A stretch of DNA of 64,000 nt from Ktedonobacteraceae bacterium (GTDB lineage Bacteria; Chloroflexota; Ktedonobacteria; Ktedonobacterales; Ktedonobacteraceae), in NCBI GenBank assembly GCA_035653615.1, contig DASRBN010000019.1:124001-188000 (forward strand). Reading direction: 5' to 3'. Of this stretch, positions 1,983-5,978 are shown piece by piece (position 1 is the first letter of the stretch; every line of letters starts with the position of its first letter). The notes under the pieces were generated by a model. That model searched no databases. It had not been told where the DNA came from and was given only the letters and a program-made list of their open reading frames with translations. The translations under genes were made by a program, and so were the position numbers.

Positions 1983-3005
1983 TTATTTATGTATCAGTGC
2001 CGGCAGGAGTAATTGGAGCGCATAGACAATATGCCAGATCATCAGGCCGATTGTCAGCAGGGCAAGCGCTATGTGAAACTTGCGCCAGTAGCGAATGACG
2101 TACCGGTAAAATTGTTCGCGTTTCATCGCTCGCTCGACCACGCGCAGTTCGGCGATCTGCTCCTGCGCGCCGGGCATCAGCGCACCCGGTCGTGTCAGCT
2201 CGCTTTTCTTGTCCGGCACGAAGCGATAGTGACCTGACTGGCGGTTGATCTCCTGTGGGGTCGCGTCCAGCGAGATGTAGGCTAAGTCCCAGGGCGTATG
2301 CAGGCGCTGCTCCTTAGATGTGAAAGGGAGAGCGTTCGATATGGGGCCGGATAACGGAACCAGTGATGTGGGGGCAGGACTTACATTCGCGCTCCTATCC
2401 CGTTCCGCCGGCTTATCAGCAGGAGAAAAACTGCGCAGCGACTGGTTGTTATGGACGACGATGGACTGTAATTTCTGCGAGATGACCTCGATACGATCAT
2501 CGCCCTGCTCGGTCAGAGCCTTTTGCACCTCGTTTGTAATCAGGTACGGCATGATACGATCAAGCACGCGTCCGATAAGGCCGCTGATGACAAGGGCAAT
2601 CATGCCATAAAGCGCGTATGTGCCCGTGCGCGGATTGAAGTTGCCGAACGAATGCAAAAAGAGCAGGAACAGGCCCAGCACGCCGAAGCAGATATGCCAT
2701 TGCAGGGATGTGTTCAGCTTGCCCACCGCCCCCTTTTTAGCAGAGCGCCGCCGCCAGGTATAGAGAATGGCCGCCAGGACCAGGCAGGTCGTGCCCAGAA
2801 TCGCGAAGCCATACCCGGCATAACTGTCCGGTGAAGCATCGTTGCTGTTGTGTATGTACCAGGCGAAGAAACCGGCGGCGGCGAGCATGAGCAGTATAGT
2901 GACCAGAAGACGTTTTATCTGCGTAGCGCCGCCTGTGAAGGATAGCCAGGAATAACCCTTTTCGCCATTTTCAAGAGGAGCTTCACGTCGATAGGTGAAT
3001 CCCAT
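1983..3005 (-). CDS. Membrane protein with two His pairs, predicted di-heme b-type subunit
   Basis: A 340-residue membrane protein. Hydrophobic helices lie near residues 31-50, 64-83, 104-120, 129-148 and 311-335, with a polar cytoplasmic loop of about 160 residues before the last. Helix 3 holds H104 and H118, and helix 5 holds H311 and H325. Both pairs are 14 residues apart, the spacing of His ligands that stack two b hemes in bis-heme cytochromes and ferric reductases. The ATG overlaps the stop of the upstream ferredoxin gene (TAATG) after GGGAGG, so the two are translationally coupled; an upstream in-frame start would lie inside the ferredoxin gene. I infer that it passes electrons between the ferredoxin and a quinone or outer acceptor. 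No flavin domain is present in the protein itself. Confidence 0.72.
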   Translation of the reverse strand: MGFTYRREAPLENGEKGYSWLSFTGGATQIKRLLVTILLMLAAAGFFAWYIHNSNDASPDSYAGYGFAILGTTCLVLAAILYTWRRRSAKKGAVGKLNTSLQWHICFGVLGLFLLFLHSFGNFNPRTGTYALYGMIALVISGLIGRVLDRIMPYLITNEVQKALTEQGDDRIEVISQKLQSIVVHNNQSLRSFSPADKPAERDRSANVSPAPTSLVPLSGPISNALPFTSKEQRLHTPWDLAYISLDATPQEINRQSGHYRFVPDKKSELTRPGALMPGAQEQIAELRVVERAMKREQFYRYVIRYWRKFHIALALLTIGLMIWHIVYALQLLLPALIHK

Positions 3006-3325
3006 TATTCCTCCCGCCCAGAGCGCAGCAGGCGTACTTTGAGCCACATCATCATCGCGTCACGGTGCAGACCTACGGGACAGGGCGCCACACACGCGCC
3101 GCACTGGAAGCACGAGCGGGCGAAGCGCGCCACCGGGGCAGAGATCGTTCCACCCAGCGTTTCACGGTTGAGTACGTCAATGGTAATCGGCTCGGCCAGC
3201 GCGGGACAGGCGAGCAGGCACTCGTTGCAGCCGATGCAGGCATGCAGTTCTTGCACCACCTGTGGCCCTGTTTTGTGCAATAGCACCCCACTATTCGATC
3301 TCTGCCTCACTCCAGCTTTTAACAT
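3005..3325 (-). CDS. Two-cluster [4Fe-4S] ferredoxin-type subunit (HdrC/GlpC-like)
   Basis: A 106-residue soluble protein with two full CxxCxxCxxxC motifs: C30, C33, C36, C40 and C72, C75, C78, C82, each followed by Pro. This fits two [4Fe-4S] clusters in the arrangement of HdrC, GlpC or succinate-dehydrogenase-type iron-sulphur subunits, where the protein links a flavoprotein to a membrane heme subunit. GGAG precedes the ATG at 3325. Its stop overlaps the start of the predicted di-heme membrane subunit, and a FAD/NAD(P) reductase gene lies upstream on the same strand. The pattern of clusters is certain; the electron partners are inferred from position. Confidence 0.85.
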   Translation of the reverse strand: MLKAGVRQRSNSGVLLHKTGPQVVQELHACIGCNECLLACPALAEPITIDVLNRETLGGTISAPVARFARSCFQCGACVAPCPVGLHRDAMMMWLKVRLLRSGREE

Positions 3326-3351
3326 CTATCAGCTCCTTCCGCTAGTCCATA

Positions 3352-3470
3352 ATGGCCGATAAATCGGCGGTGCCCGCGATGAATCGGGGCCTACGGGCCT
3401 GCCCGCGGCGTAATCGGCCTTACCGTAGGGGCCGATTTATCGTACACACCGCCGATTGATCGGCCCTCCG
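3352..3470. repeat. Dispersed GTAGGGGCC repeat, copies 3-5
   Basis: Several half-units lie here, in both orientations: GCCGATAAATCGGCGG, GATGAATCGGGGCCTACGGG, CGTAGGGGCCGATTTATCG and CCGCCGATTGATCGGCCC. The group fills the space just upstream of the ferredoxin gene and would lie in its leader on the minus strand. Confidence 0.7.
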
Positions 3471-3518
3471 AGATGACCATATTACTTTGTCACCTCCCAC
3501 TATCGACCAGCAACCCTC

Positions 3519-3622
3519 GGTGCCAGAAGTATCGCGCCCCCGCGGTAGGGCAGGCAAGGCTGATCGGGGGGGAAGGACAGCCCCGCCACCTCCCTACCTG
3601 GGAGCGCGATACTTCTGGCACC
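3519..3622. repeat. Long imperfect hairpin between the reductase and ferredoxin genes
   Basis: A perfect 19-bp pair (3519-3537 with 3604-3622) is continued inwards by GGTAGGG at 3544-3550 against CCCTACC at 3592-3598. The structure is therefore about 100 bases long. It starts about 25 bases after the stop of the FAD reductase gene on the minus strand. It could end or process the transcript, or be a folded dispersed element. Confidence 0.6.
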
Positions 3623-3646
3623 TGCCATCCCAAACCATCCCATTCC

Positions 3647-5347
3647 TCAATCTCCACCAGACCTTTCCATTGGCGTGATGAACTGTTTTCCCTGTTTCGG
3701 ACGAAAACGAGTGTATGCCTGGTTACCCGGAACCACCTGCATTTTGTTGCTGTAGGACCACAGGTTGCGCGACGCCTGCTGTGATGAGCGCGACGGCAGT
3801 GCTACAAGTGTTGATTCGACAATACGACGCCCCGCTTCACAACTTTGCTGGCGAGCTGCCAGGGGGCCGGTATCCGGCAAGACGCGCACGAGACGACCCG
3901 AAGTAGTGGATGAAGCTCTTTCCGTATGCTTCAATGATGGCGATTCATTGTGTAGATAGCCTGCCGCCGGCGCCTCGCTGTCCAGGGAGAGATCGCGCGT
4001 GGTACGCGGCAATGGCGTCGGCAATTGGCCCGTCGTAACCATACGTTCCGCGGCGCTGCTGCGTTTGCGCGAAAAGTAGGTGCGAGCATCGAATTTGCCC
4101 TTGAGCAAATCCTTTTTGATATCGCGAATCGAGAGGCCCTCGTCAATGATGCGTTTGATGGCAAGCGAATCGGGCTGCGCCGGTCCGAGCGAGAGGTAGC
4201 CGATCAGCCGGTCGTCCATAATTGTCAGGCGCCGGTAGCTGCCCCTGCTGCTGTCGGTTAAAATTGCCGCATTTTCGCGCCAGAGCAGCGGATTTCCCAC
4301 CGTCAGCATGGAAAGCTCGCCCAGGCGCGTCGCGTGCCAGGGAACGCCAAAACCCTCTTCATGCGGGGTTCCCGTCATGGCCGCCGCCGCGACACGTCCC
4401 TGTAAGACCGCCGCGTACCACTGCGCGCGCGTAGAGTGCCTGCCTGTTTGTGGGTCTCGCAGCGCGGCCACGTCACCGGCAGCATAGATGTCCCGCGTGC
4501 TGGTGCGCAGGCTATCATCAACCAGGATGCCATGCTTTTGCTGTAGGGGAAGATCGCAGTTCCCGGCCAGCGTGGTGACGGGCGTAGTTCCGGTGCATAC
4601 TAAGACAAGCTGGCAGGGCAACATCTGGCGCTGGTTTGTCACCACGCCTGCCACCGCGCCGACCCTGCCCACAATTCCTATCACTTCTGTCTGTGTGTAA
4701 ATTTTTGCGCCCGCGCGCCGCGTATAGTCCAGCACCATTTCTGAGGCCGGACGATCCAGCATGCGCGGCAGGAAAGTATCGCTGCGAATCAGCCAGTGGA
4801 CGGATATGCCCCAATAGAGCAAGGACATAACGGTCTCAATAGCGTGCGGGCCCCCGCCGATCACCACCGCGTCTTCCACCTCCGGCAGCCGTCGCCGCAA
4901 ATCAAGGTAATCCTGTAAACGATGCAGCGTGAGGACACCGTCGAAATCGCGCCCGGGCAGATCAAGAGGCAGACCTGTGGCAGCGCTGCCGGTGGCGATG
5001 AGCAGGTTATCGTAGCCAAAACAGCGCCCGCCCGCGAGACAAACATATTTGTTCTGAGCGCAGATGCTCTCAACGCGCGCATTGACGACATGGATCATCT
5101 GCGCGCGTTCGGTTCCGGCAGGATAGGCCAGCAATTGTTCGCGCGCCAGCTTCCCAATCGCAAACTGCTTGAGCGCGGGCGTATTGATCGTTGGATGGCT
5201 TTGATCTGTGATAATAGCAATACGCTCATTGGGAGCCAGGCGGCGCGCCTCTACTGCCGCCGTCAGCCCGGCTATGCCATTGCCGATAATCACGATACCG
5301 GCACGATCTACATATTTCGCAATACCCGGTGCGTTTTGCCTGCTCAT
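3647..5347 (-). CDS. FAD-dependent NAD(P)H oxidoreductase
   Basis: A 566-residue flavoprotein of the pyridine-nucleotide oxidoreductase family (NirB/rubredoxin-reductase-like). The FAD fingerprint is IIGNGIAG (GxGxxG at 22-27). The NAD(P) fingerprint is VIGGGPHAIE near residue 165. The second FAD motif is YAAGDVA near 290. There is no CxxC redox-active disulphide, which argues against glutathione- or thioredoxin-reductase function. After about residue 430 the chain is Ser/Arg-rich without a recognisable domain, an unusual tail of about 130 residues. It probably oxidises NAD(P)H and passes electrons to the downstream two-cluster ferredoxin and di-heme membrane subunit; this link rests on gene order only. 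Confidence 0.85.
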   Translation of the reverse strand: MSRQNAPGIAKYVDRAGIVIIGNGIAGLTAAVEARRLAPNERIAIITDQSHPTINTPALKQFAIGKLAREQLLAYPAGTERAQMIHVVNARVESICAQNKYVCLAGGRCFGYDNLLIATGSAATGLPLDLPGRDFDGVLTLHRLQDYLDLRRRLPEVEDAVVIGGGPHAIETVMSLLYWGISVHWLIRSDTFLPRMLDRPASEMVLDYTRRAGAKIYTQTEVIGIVGRVGAVAGVVTNQRQMLPCQLVLVCTGTTPVTTLAGNCDLPLQQKHGILVDDSLRTSTRDIYAAGDVAALRDPQTGRHSTRAQWYAAVLQGRVAAAAMTGTPHEEGFGVPWHATRLGELSMLTVGNPLLWRENAAILTDSSRGSYRRLTIMDDRLIGYLSLGPAQPDSLAIKRIIDEGLSIRDIKKDLLKGKFDARTYFSRKRSSAAERMVTTGQLPTPLPRTTRDLSLDSEAPAAGYLHNESPSLKHTERASSTTSGRLVRVLPDTGPLAARQQSCEAGRRIVESTLVALPSRSSQQASRNLWSYSNKMQVVPGNQAYTRFRPKQGKQFITPMERSGGD

Positions 5348-5385: not shown

Positions 5386-5736
5386 CTAATCAACATCCAC
5401 CGCCAGCAGAAGACCACACGGCTTCCCCGCGCAATCCTGCTGGACGTAATACACATCCGTAGAAGCGTGTTCTCGCATATGCCGTTGCAAATGGCTCAGA
5501 GAAGCATGGCATGTCTGGCTGCATTGAAAAAAGAGGCGTTTCCCCGTCGCCATTTGCAGCGTGAAATCCATGCCCGGGCCGATAGCGACAATCTTGCCGT
5601 TGGCGTGTTCCACATTGTCTCCATGTTGAAACACCGGCCCCAGCACCGCTATCCCGCCAATGCATGCCAGTGATATGCTGCCGATTAACAGAAATACAAA
5701 CAGCGCAGCTGTAAAACGGGGAAAGATCGATAACAA
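5386..5736 (-). CDS. Small membrane-anchored protein with Cys pairs
   Basis: A 116-residue protein with one hydrophobic N-terminal helix (about residues 8-33), probably an uncleaved anchor, and an outer domain of about 80 residues. That domain contains two Cys pairs, CSQTC and CAGKPC, that could form disulphides or bind metal. AAGGAG lies 7 bases before a TTG start at 5736; a competing longer frame here lacks such support. It precedes the FAD reductase on the same strand by about 40 bases, so it may belong to that electron-transfer group. No family is recognised. Confidence 0.6.
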   Translation of the reverse strand: MLSIFPRFTAALFVFLLIGSISLACIGGIAVLGPVFQHGDNVEHANGKIVAIGPGMDFTLQMATGKRLFFQCSQTCHASLSHLQRHMREHASTDVYYVQQDCAGKPCGLLLAVDVD

Positions 5737-5888: not shown

Positions 5889-5978
5889 AACATCTCCACA
5901 AATCGACAGAAAGCCAGAAGAGACCGACCCCCGCGGGGATTGGTCTCTTCTGGCTTTCTGTCGATTTGTGGAGATGTT
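5889..5978. terminator. Perfect 37-bp palindrome at the RNase J stop
   Basis: Arms 5889-5925 and 5942-5978 are perfectly complementary over 37 bp, and the CCCC/GGGG centre can extend the stem. The arm includes most of the TAA stop of the RNase J gene (5977-5979). No T run follows on either strand. A stem this long should block RNA polymerase or stabilise the mRNA 3' end, and it would form duplex RNA if read through. Confidence 0.7.

Follow-up and report, generated by a model that had tools for sequence, protein, structure and literature searches.

A conserved Ktedonobacterial gene unit that probably relays electrons from NAD(P)H across the membrane

The window analysed here is a 64,000-nucleotide stretch of DNA from a Ktedonobacteraceae bacterium (phylum Chloroflexota; contig DASRBN010000019.1, positions 124,001 to 188,000; source genome 6.6 Mb). 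Five minus-strand genes in the window, given the working names P5_116, FADR, FDX, MEMB and TM145, make up a unit that probably encodes a membrane-spanning relay, in which electrons would pass from NAD(P)H to FAD, to two [4Fe-4S] clusters, to two b hemes in succession and then to an extracytoplasmic acceptor. The evidence, read from the sequence, consists of gene content, cofactor motifs, invariant histidines, gene order, the co-occurrence of P5_116 with MEMB and the multiheme cytochrome neighbours of related clusters. An earlier proposal, made from the letters alone (the sequence-only reading), was of a module for transmembrane electron transfer that has a two-heme b-type subunit; this was supported, and the module proved to be conserved as a unit. 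The genes are as follows.

P5_116, 5386-5736, minus: first gene of the unit; one transmembrane (TM) anchor and a predicted extracytoplasmic OB-fold domain, assigned from an AlphaFold2 (AF2) model, a structural match to SilF/CusF, conservation and co-occurrence
FADR, 3647-5347, minus: 566-residue FAD/NAD(P)H oxidoreductase (NirB/ferredoxin-reductase type) that lacks a redox disulphide and has an apparently disordered tail
FDX, 3005-3325, minus: 106-residue 2[4Fe-4S] ferredoxin; TAATG overlap with MEMB
MEMB, 1983-3005, minus: 340-residue, five-TM putative two-heme b-type membrane protein
TM145, 1486-1923, minus: small hydrophobic membrane protein encoded downstream of MEMB

Conservation of the unit and its soluble redox proteins

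The sequence-only reading had described FADR, FDX and MEMB as three consecutive minus-strand genes. The coordinates, strand and order stood, as did the TAATG overlap of FDX and MEMB; the description had left out the 321 bp between FADR and FDX and the conserved neighbours at 5386-5736 and 1486-1923. MEMB was present in 29 of 29 genomes of the same family and in 3 of 18 genomes from other families of the same order. When 29 other genomes (26 same-family, three same-order) were fetched with wide flanks, FADR, FDX and MEMB had identical order and strand in all of them, with P5_116 before FADR in 23 and TM145 after MEMB in 17 of these loci. Genomes with the three genes apart had been named beforehand as grounds for giving up the module, and none was seen: the genes were adjacent in every Ktedonobacterial genome inspected. 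MEMB is also borne by loci of Ktedonobacter, Dictyobacter and Thermogemmatispora, and no relative of it was found on plasmids. P5_116 was detected in 27 of the 32 genomes with MEMB and in none of the 29 genomes without it. No Pfam match was obtained for the window copy of TM145, and none above cut-off for four homologues.

FADR matched Pyr_redox_2 with 159 bits (cut-off 26.1, E=2e-46), which places it in the pyridine nucleotide-disulphide oxidoreductase (PNDR) superfamily. Its nearest families were PadH, HcaD, NirB and rubredoxin reductase, and it fell far below every equivalog cut-off (for PadH, NF045765, 144 bits against 475). As had been stated, the CxxxxC redox disulphide is absent from the stretch of FADR where relatives carry one. 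Position 188 is arginine in 50 of 51 homologues. Because this residue is conserved where NADH enzymes usually have an acidic one, a preference of FADR for NADPH over NADH is suggested, by analogy with glutathione reductase. A motif, R[NK]LWSY, is conserved close to the end of the long, apparently disordered tail of FADR. The tails of L039, L043, L078 and other homologues carry repeated EEISPFTGNLP-like motifs, which are absent in the window copy; these tail motifs are possibly docking or phospho-threonine sites.

The description of FDX as a small two-cluster ferredoxin was borne out by two CxxCxxCxxxCP motifs, whose eight cysteines were unchanged in all 13 sequences aligned, and by a match to Fer4_10 (36.2 bits, cut-off 25.5). 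At locus L070, FADR and FDX are fused in a single chain of 1397 residues, and for this reason the two are taken to work together.

The membrane protein and its fold

MEMB was read as 340 residues from the ATG inside the TAATG overlap; this start was preferred to that of an alternative 354-residue open reading frame from an upstream GTG because it fits the residue numbering of the sequence-only reading. The AF2 model has helices at residues 27-53, 62-89, 94-119, 128-163 and 280-338. Both the sequence and the model agreed with the earlier assignment of two histidine pairs, each 14 residues apart on one helix: H104/H118 lie on helix 94-119 (TM3) and H311/H325 on helix 280-338 (TM5). The loop at about 150-300 is putatively cytoplasmic and is poorly predicted in part (pLDDT <50 at about 197-265).

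All four histidines were invariant in each of three alignments of homologues (39/39, 27/27 and 23/23). The 23-sequence alignment reaches down to 17% identity with the window protein and holds twelve invariant positions in all, four of which are these histidines. Homologues with altered pairs, which would have told against the two-heme subunit, did not appear even at this distance. Basic flanks are found in the TM2-TM3 loop and at the end of TM4 (RRRSAKK, RVLDR), and also at the start of TM5; because of these flanks and the positive-inside rule, the first histidine of each pair is placed on the cytoplasmic side, and we infer that H104 and H311 would face the cytoplasm. The window MEMB has no CxxCH motif. 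It is a putative two-heme b-type subunit, with heme occupancy predicted from the histidine pairs.

The sequence-only reading could name no module that the arrangement matches, and MEMB reached no named family, scoring below every Pfam cut-off. PF01794 (Ferric_reduct) gave no match to the window protein up to E=1, its best score among relatives being 27.6 bits (cut-off 28). PF01292 (Ni_hydr_CYTB) gave 10.3 bits for the window protein and 27.4 for the best relative (cut-off 30.1), with weak matches in 14 of 23 MEMB homologues. The resemblance to Hdr/Dsr/Gpd-type modules suggested in that reading was not supported, since the sub-threshold Pfam matches were to these two families and the closest folds were of another kind. 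For HdrE/DsrM/NarI-type families there was no match to the window MEMB at E<=1 in Pfam or NCBIfam; among its 23 homologues they were absent from the 25 most-hit Pfam families, and none was seen in NCBIfam. In VIA-align 2 the top row was STEAP4 (Z 8.6, 156 residues, root-mean-square deviation 5.0), and NOX5 (Z 8.1, 147 residues, 5.6), STEAP2 (Z 8.0), Dcytb (Z 8.0, 135 residues, 3.2) and Streptococcus pneumoniae NOX (SpNOX, Z 7.5) were also matched, values to be read with the tool's own caution that, for helical bundles, a common arrangement can by itself give a Z close to 8. These are proteins that move electrons outward from cytosolic donors.

That caution is a reservation about the proposed relay, as are the hhalign comparisons of MEMB with ferric-reductase, b561 and cytochrome b domains from Chloroflexota, in which the probability was 0.1-2% (1.5% for the ferric reductase domain, FRD, from small alignments). 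No significant match to MEMB came from Foldseek on its own, and phmmer and profile searches against PDB sequences returned nothing relevant. Because of the sub-cut-off Pfam scores, the non-significant Foldseek result, the low hhalign probabilities and the cautioned Z scores, MEMB is called FRD/b561-like. It resembles the cores of ferric reductases, NOX, STEAP and b561 more than it does Hdr/Dsr subunits, and is considered to work like an FRD/b561 electron conduit, membership in those families not being claimed.

Relatives, direction of flow and the acceptor

A phylum-wide search found MEMB in 59 of 400 Chloroflexota genomes. When one MEMB from outside the Ktedonobacteria served as a single-sequence query, the window protein was among the matches, at 5e-13. 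The clusters of other families have the form FDX-FADR-MEMB-multiheme cytochrome c; among 18 loci from these families, 14 contained all four genes. In L146 only FDX went undetected, L069 and L150 had MEMB and the cytochrome, and L149, a weak-match locus, had no cytochrome, so that a multiheme cytochrome c adjoined MEMB in 17 of the 18. The cluster cytochromes are of the cytochrome c7/c3 type, with up to 41 CxxCH motifs. At L142:10632-13760 a 1042-residue cytochrome with 41 CxxCH motifs lies directly behind an 18-motif cytochrome in a MEMB cluster. The sequence-only reading had judged the direction of flow not to be visible; because the clusters of these relatives end in a multiheme cytochrome, outward flow is the better reading.

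In the proposed mechanism, FADR would oxidise cytosolic NAD(P)H at its FAD and pass on single electrons. By way of the two [4Fe-4S] clusters of FDX these would reach a heme b that H104 and H311 of MEMB would ligate on the cytoplasmic side, then a second heme b, between H118 and H325, on the outer side, and would exit at the outer face to an extracytoplasmic acceptor; the proteins may act as a physical complex. In other Chloroflexota families the acceptor would be the adjoining multiheme cytochrome c. In Ktedonobacteria the likeliest acceptor would be P5_116 itself, or else a metal ion or an oxidised substrate of the envelope for which P5_116 would act. A homologue of the multiheme cytochrome was found in 0 of 29 Ktedonobacteraceae genomes, whereas the same query gave a match in 6 of 6 genomes that bear the cluster. 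Despite this absence, the Ktedonobacteraceae have genes for cytochrome c assembly.

P5_116 was modelled as a TM helix followed by an OB fold (AF2, pLDDT 87), and its best structural matches were SilF/CusF (Z 8.2-9.2). Its invariant residues are A10, G47, F58, F70, C72, C76, H82, R85, H86, E89, A91, T93, Y96 and D116. A narrower version of the relay, possible and at present the less probable course, is an assimilatory or protective surface metalloreductase in Ktedonobacteria, in which MEMB would reduce Cu(II) or Fe(III) that P5_116 binds or delivers. The nearness to SilF/CusF and the retained HxxRHxxE helix (H82, R85, H86, E89) and, within the family, CxxxC (C72/C76) speak for it, as does the resemblance of MEMB to the STEAP/Dcytb metalloreductases. 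OB folds are common, however, and no metal transporter was conserved near the unit among the inspected Ktedonobacterial loci. The Cu(I) ligands of CusF/SilF are methionine, tryptophan and histidine; no methionine or tryptophan is among the invariant residues of P5_116, which counts against the metalloreductase and led to rejection of a CusF/SilF identity. A heme c reading of its CSQTCH sequence was also rejected, because the histidine after the second cysteine is limited to the window copy and one relative. P5_116 is plausibly an electron or metal site outside the membrane, and nothing more is claimed for it.

The unit might instead be an NAD(P)H:menaquinone oxidoreductase with the same FAD, Fe-S and heme path, MEMB feeding the quinone pool in the manner of subunits of the HdrE/DsrM/NarI type, which exchange electrons with quinone. 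Di-heme b subunits with Fe-S partners are established as often exchanging electrons with quinones, and the Ktedonobacteria have no homologue of the relatives' cytochrome. We nevertheless regard this as rather unlikely: the multiheme cytochrome c that stands beside MEMB in relatives would be superfluous in a simple NAD(P)H:quinone reductase, the closest folds of MEMB are outward reductases, and P5_116, predicted to be extracytoplasmic, occurs only alongside MEMB.

Inward flow, in which an extracytoplasmic source or multiheme cytochrome would reduce MEMB and FADR would make NAD(P)H from FDX, is improbable. The parts are reversible in principle, and PMC5808234 reports both anodic and cathodic currents from Ardenticatena maritima, also of the Chloroflexota. 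Against this, reduction of NAD(P)+ from outside requires a very low-potential donor or energy coupling, the unit has no ion-pumping subunit and no donor gene is conserved in Ktedonobacteria. A NOX-like superoxide producer with an unusual dehydrogenase, to which the structural matches with NOX5 and SpNOX might point, is most improbable, since the marker histidine four residues past the outer TM3 ligand (NOX2 His-119, PMC3591440) is N122 in MEMB and there is no FNR-type dehydrogenase domain.

Three further points count against the outward relay. Multiheme cytochromes can also conduct electrons inward, and there may be a quinone site on MEMB. In addition, five same-family genomes keep MEMB without P5_116, some on contigs cut near FADR; because of these genomes P5_116 is not considered indispensable. 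With these points taken into account, the outward relay remains the favoured reading. A wider proposal, held tentatively and at somewhat less than an even chance, is that FDX-FADR-MEMB constitutes an unnamed, quinone-independent inner-membrane feeder in Chloroflexota, handing electrons from NAD(P)H directly to large multiheme cytochromes. In Ktedonobacteria, where the cytochrome is lacking, this feeder would have been rewired to a new extracytoplasmic OB-fold partner, and a paralogue of it would have gained FHA and cyclic-nucleotide-binding control domains. Many Ktedonobacteria have such a second, paralogous cluster with a MEMB homologue (L063, L064, L065, L066, L067, L068, L132 and L135), in which FADR carries two FHA domains as a fusion, and FDX is likewise joined to a pair of cyclic-nucleotide-binding domains and to additional Fer4 motifs. 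This architecture suggests a signal-controlled version of the unit.

Two features of the surrounding DNA are listed separately.

Palindromic dispersed repeats, 3351-3622, between FADR and FDX: no role in the mechanism
Convergent neighbour, 268-1116, plus: one TM, FG-GAP-like C-terminus

The repeats, which lie in the 321 bp gap, are of the GGCCGATAAATCGGC type with 43-nt arms, together with a second pair with 23-nt arms; about 70 more matches to the GGCCGATAAATCGGC type were found across the genome. The convergent protein is conserved beside the unit in many Ktedonobacteria; it probably adjoins the unit without belonging to it. Upstream of the unit the window has an RNase J-like gene, which is not beside the unit in relatives. 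Immediately after this gene, at 5895-5967, there is a strong inverted repeat (CCACAAATCGACAGAAAGCCAGAAGAGACC and its complement), which is likely a terminator parting the RNase J-like gene from the unit. A promoter and terminator scan gave the same counts as in shuffled sequences.

Comparison with known systems

One of the closest known systems is the FRD superfamily (ferric reductases, NOX, STEAP and MsrQ/YedZ; PF01794), whose proteins have four heme-ligating histidines, two on TM3 and two on TM5; in NOX2 these are His-101/His-115 and His-209/His-222 (PMC3591440). MEMB likewise has its pairs on TM3 and TM5, and shares with NOX2 the TM3 spacing of 14, whereas its TM5 spacing is 14 and not 13. 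NAD(P)H as input and an extracytoplasmic acceptor as output would also be common to both. In contrast to FRD proteins, MEMB has five TM helices instead of six, and the unit uses a separate PNDR-type flavoprotein and a 2[4Fe-4S] ferredoxin in place of an FNR-type dehydrogenase domain. Prokaryotic cytochrome b561 proteins (FdnI/HydC and the membrane part of CbcL) are similar in being small b-type membrane subunits with Fe-S and c-type partners; they differ in that the MEMB pairs are on TM3 and TM5 and the donor is an NAD(P)H flavoprotein, not a hydrogenase or formate dehydrogenase.

The closest sequence relatives of FADR, namely the PadH/AorC-type NAD(H) subunits of phenylglyoxylate and aldehyde oxidoreductases, HcaD and the NirB N-terminal domain, are also FAD enzymes with Fe-S proteins as their electron-exchange partners; FADR differs in being coupled to a membrane cytochrome. 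The MsrQ-like and NapH-like flavinylated systems (PMC8238504) have the same sequence of cytosolic donor, transmembrane redox protein and extracytosolic acceptor, but no FMN-binding or ApbE partner was seen in the unit, and its flavoprotein and ferredoxin are of other kinds. CymA, CbcL and ImcH supply multiheme cytochromes with electrons through the inner membrane, as is proposed here. They are quinol oxidases, whereas the present unit starts at NAD(P)H and its MEMB lacks CxxCH. No description of the FDX-FADR-MEMB combination was found among the open-access papers searched; the parts are of known kinds, and what is regarded as new is their combination.

According to PMC7399161 and PMC5808234, very large multiheme cytochromes are present in Anaerolineales and further monoderm Chloroflexota, and at least one of these bacteria performs extracellular electron transfer. 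The passages describing Chloroflexota multiheme cytochromes in these two papers and in PMC3971608 name no inner-membrane partner. The known inner-membrane feeders are nearly absent from the phylum, a published survey having recorded 0 CymA, 0 CbcL and 1 ImcH homologue in Chloroflexi (PMC6295460), and the gene set described here is a concrete and testable candidate for the missing step. A feeder running from NAD(P)H instead of quinol would change the energetics of extracellular electron transfer, and the unit would show a NOX/FRD-like membrane core operating with a different, modular dehydrogenase.

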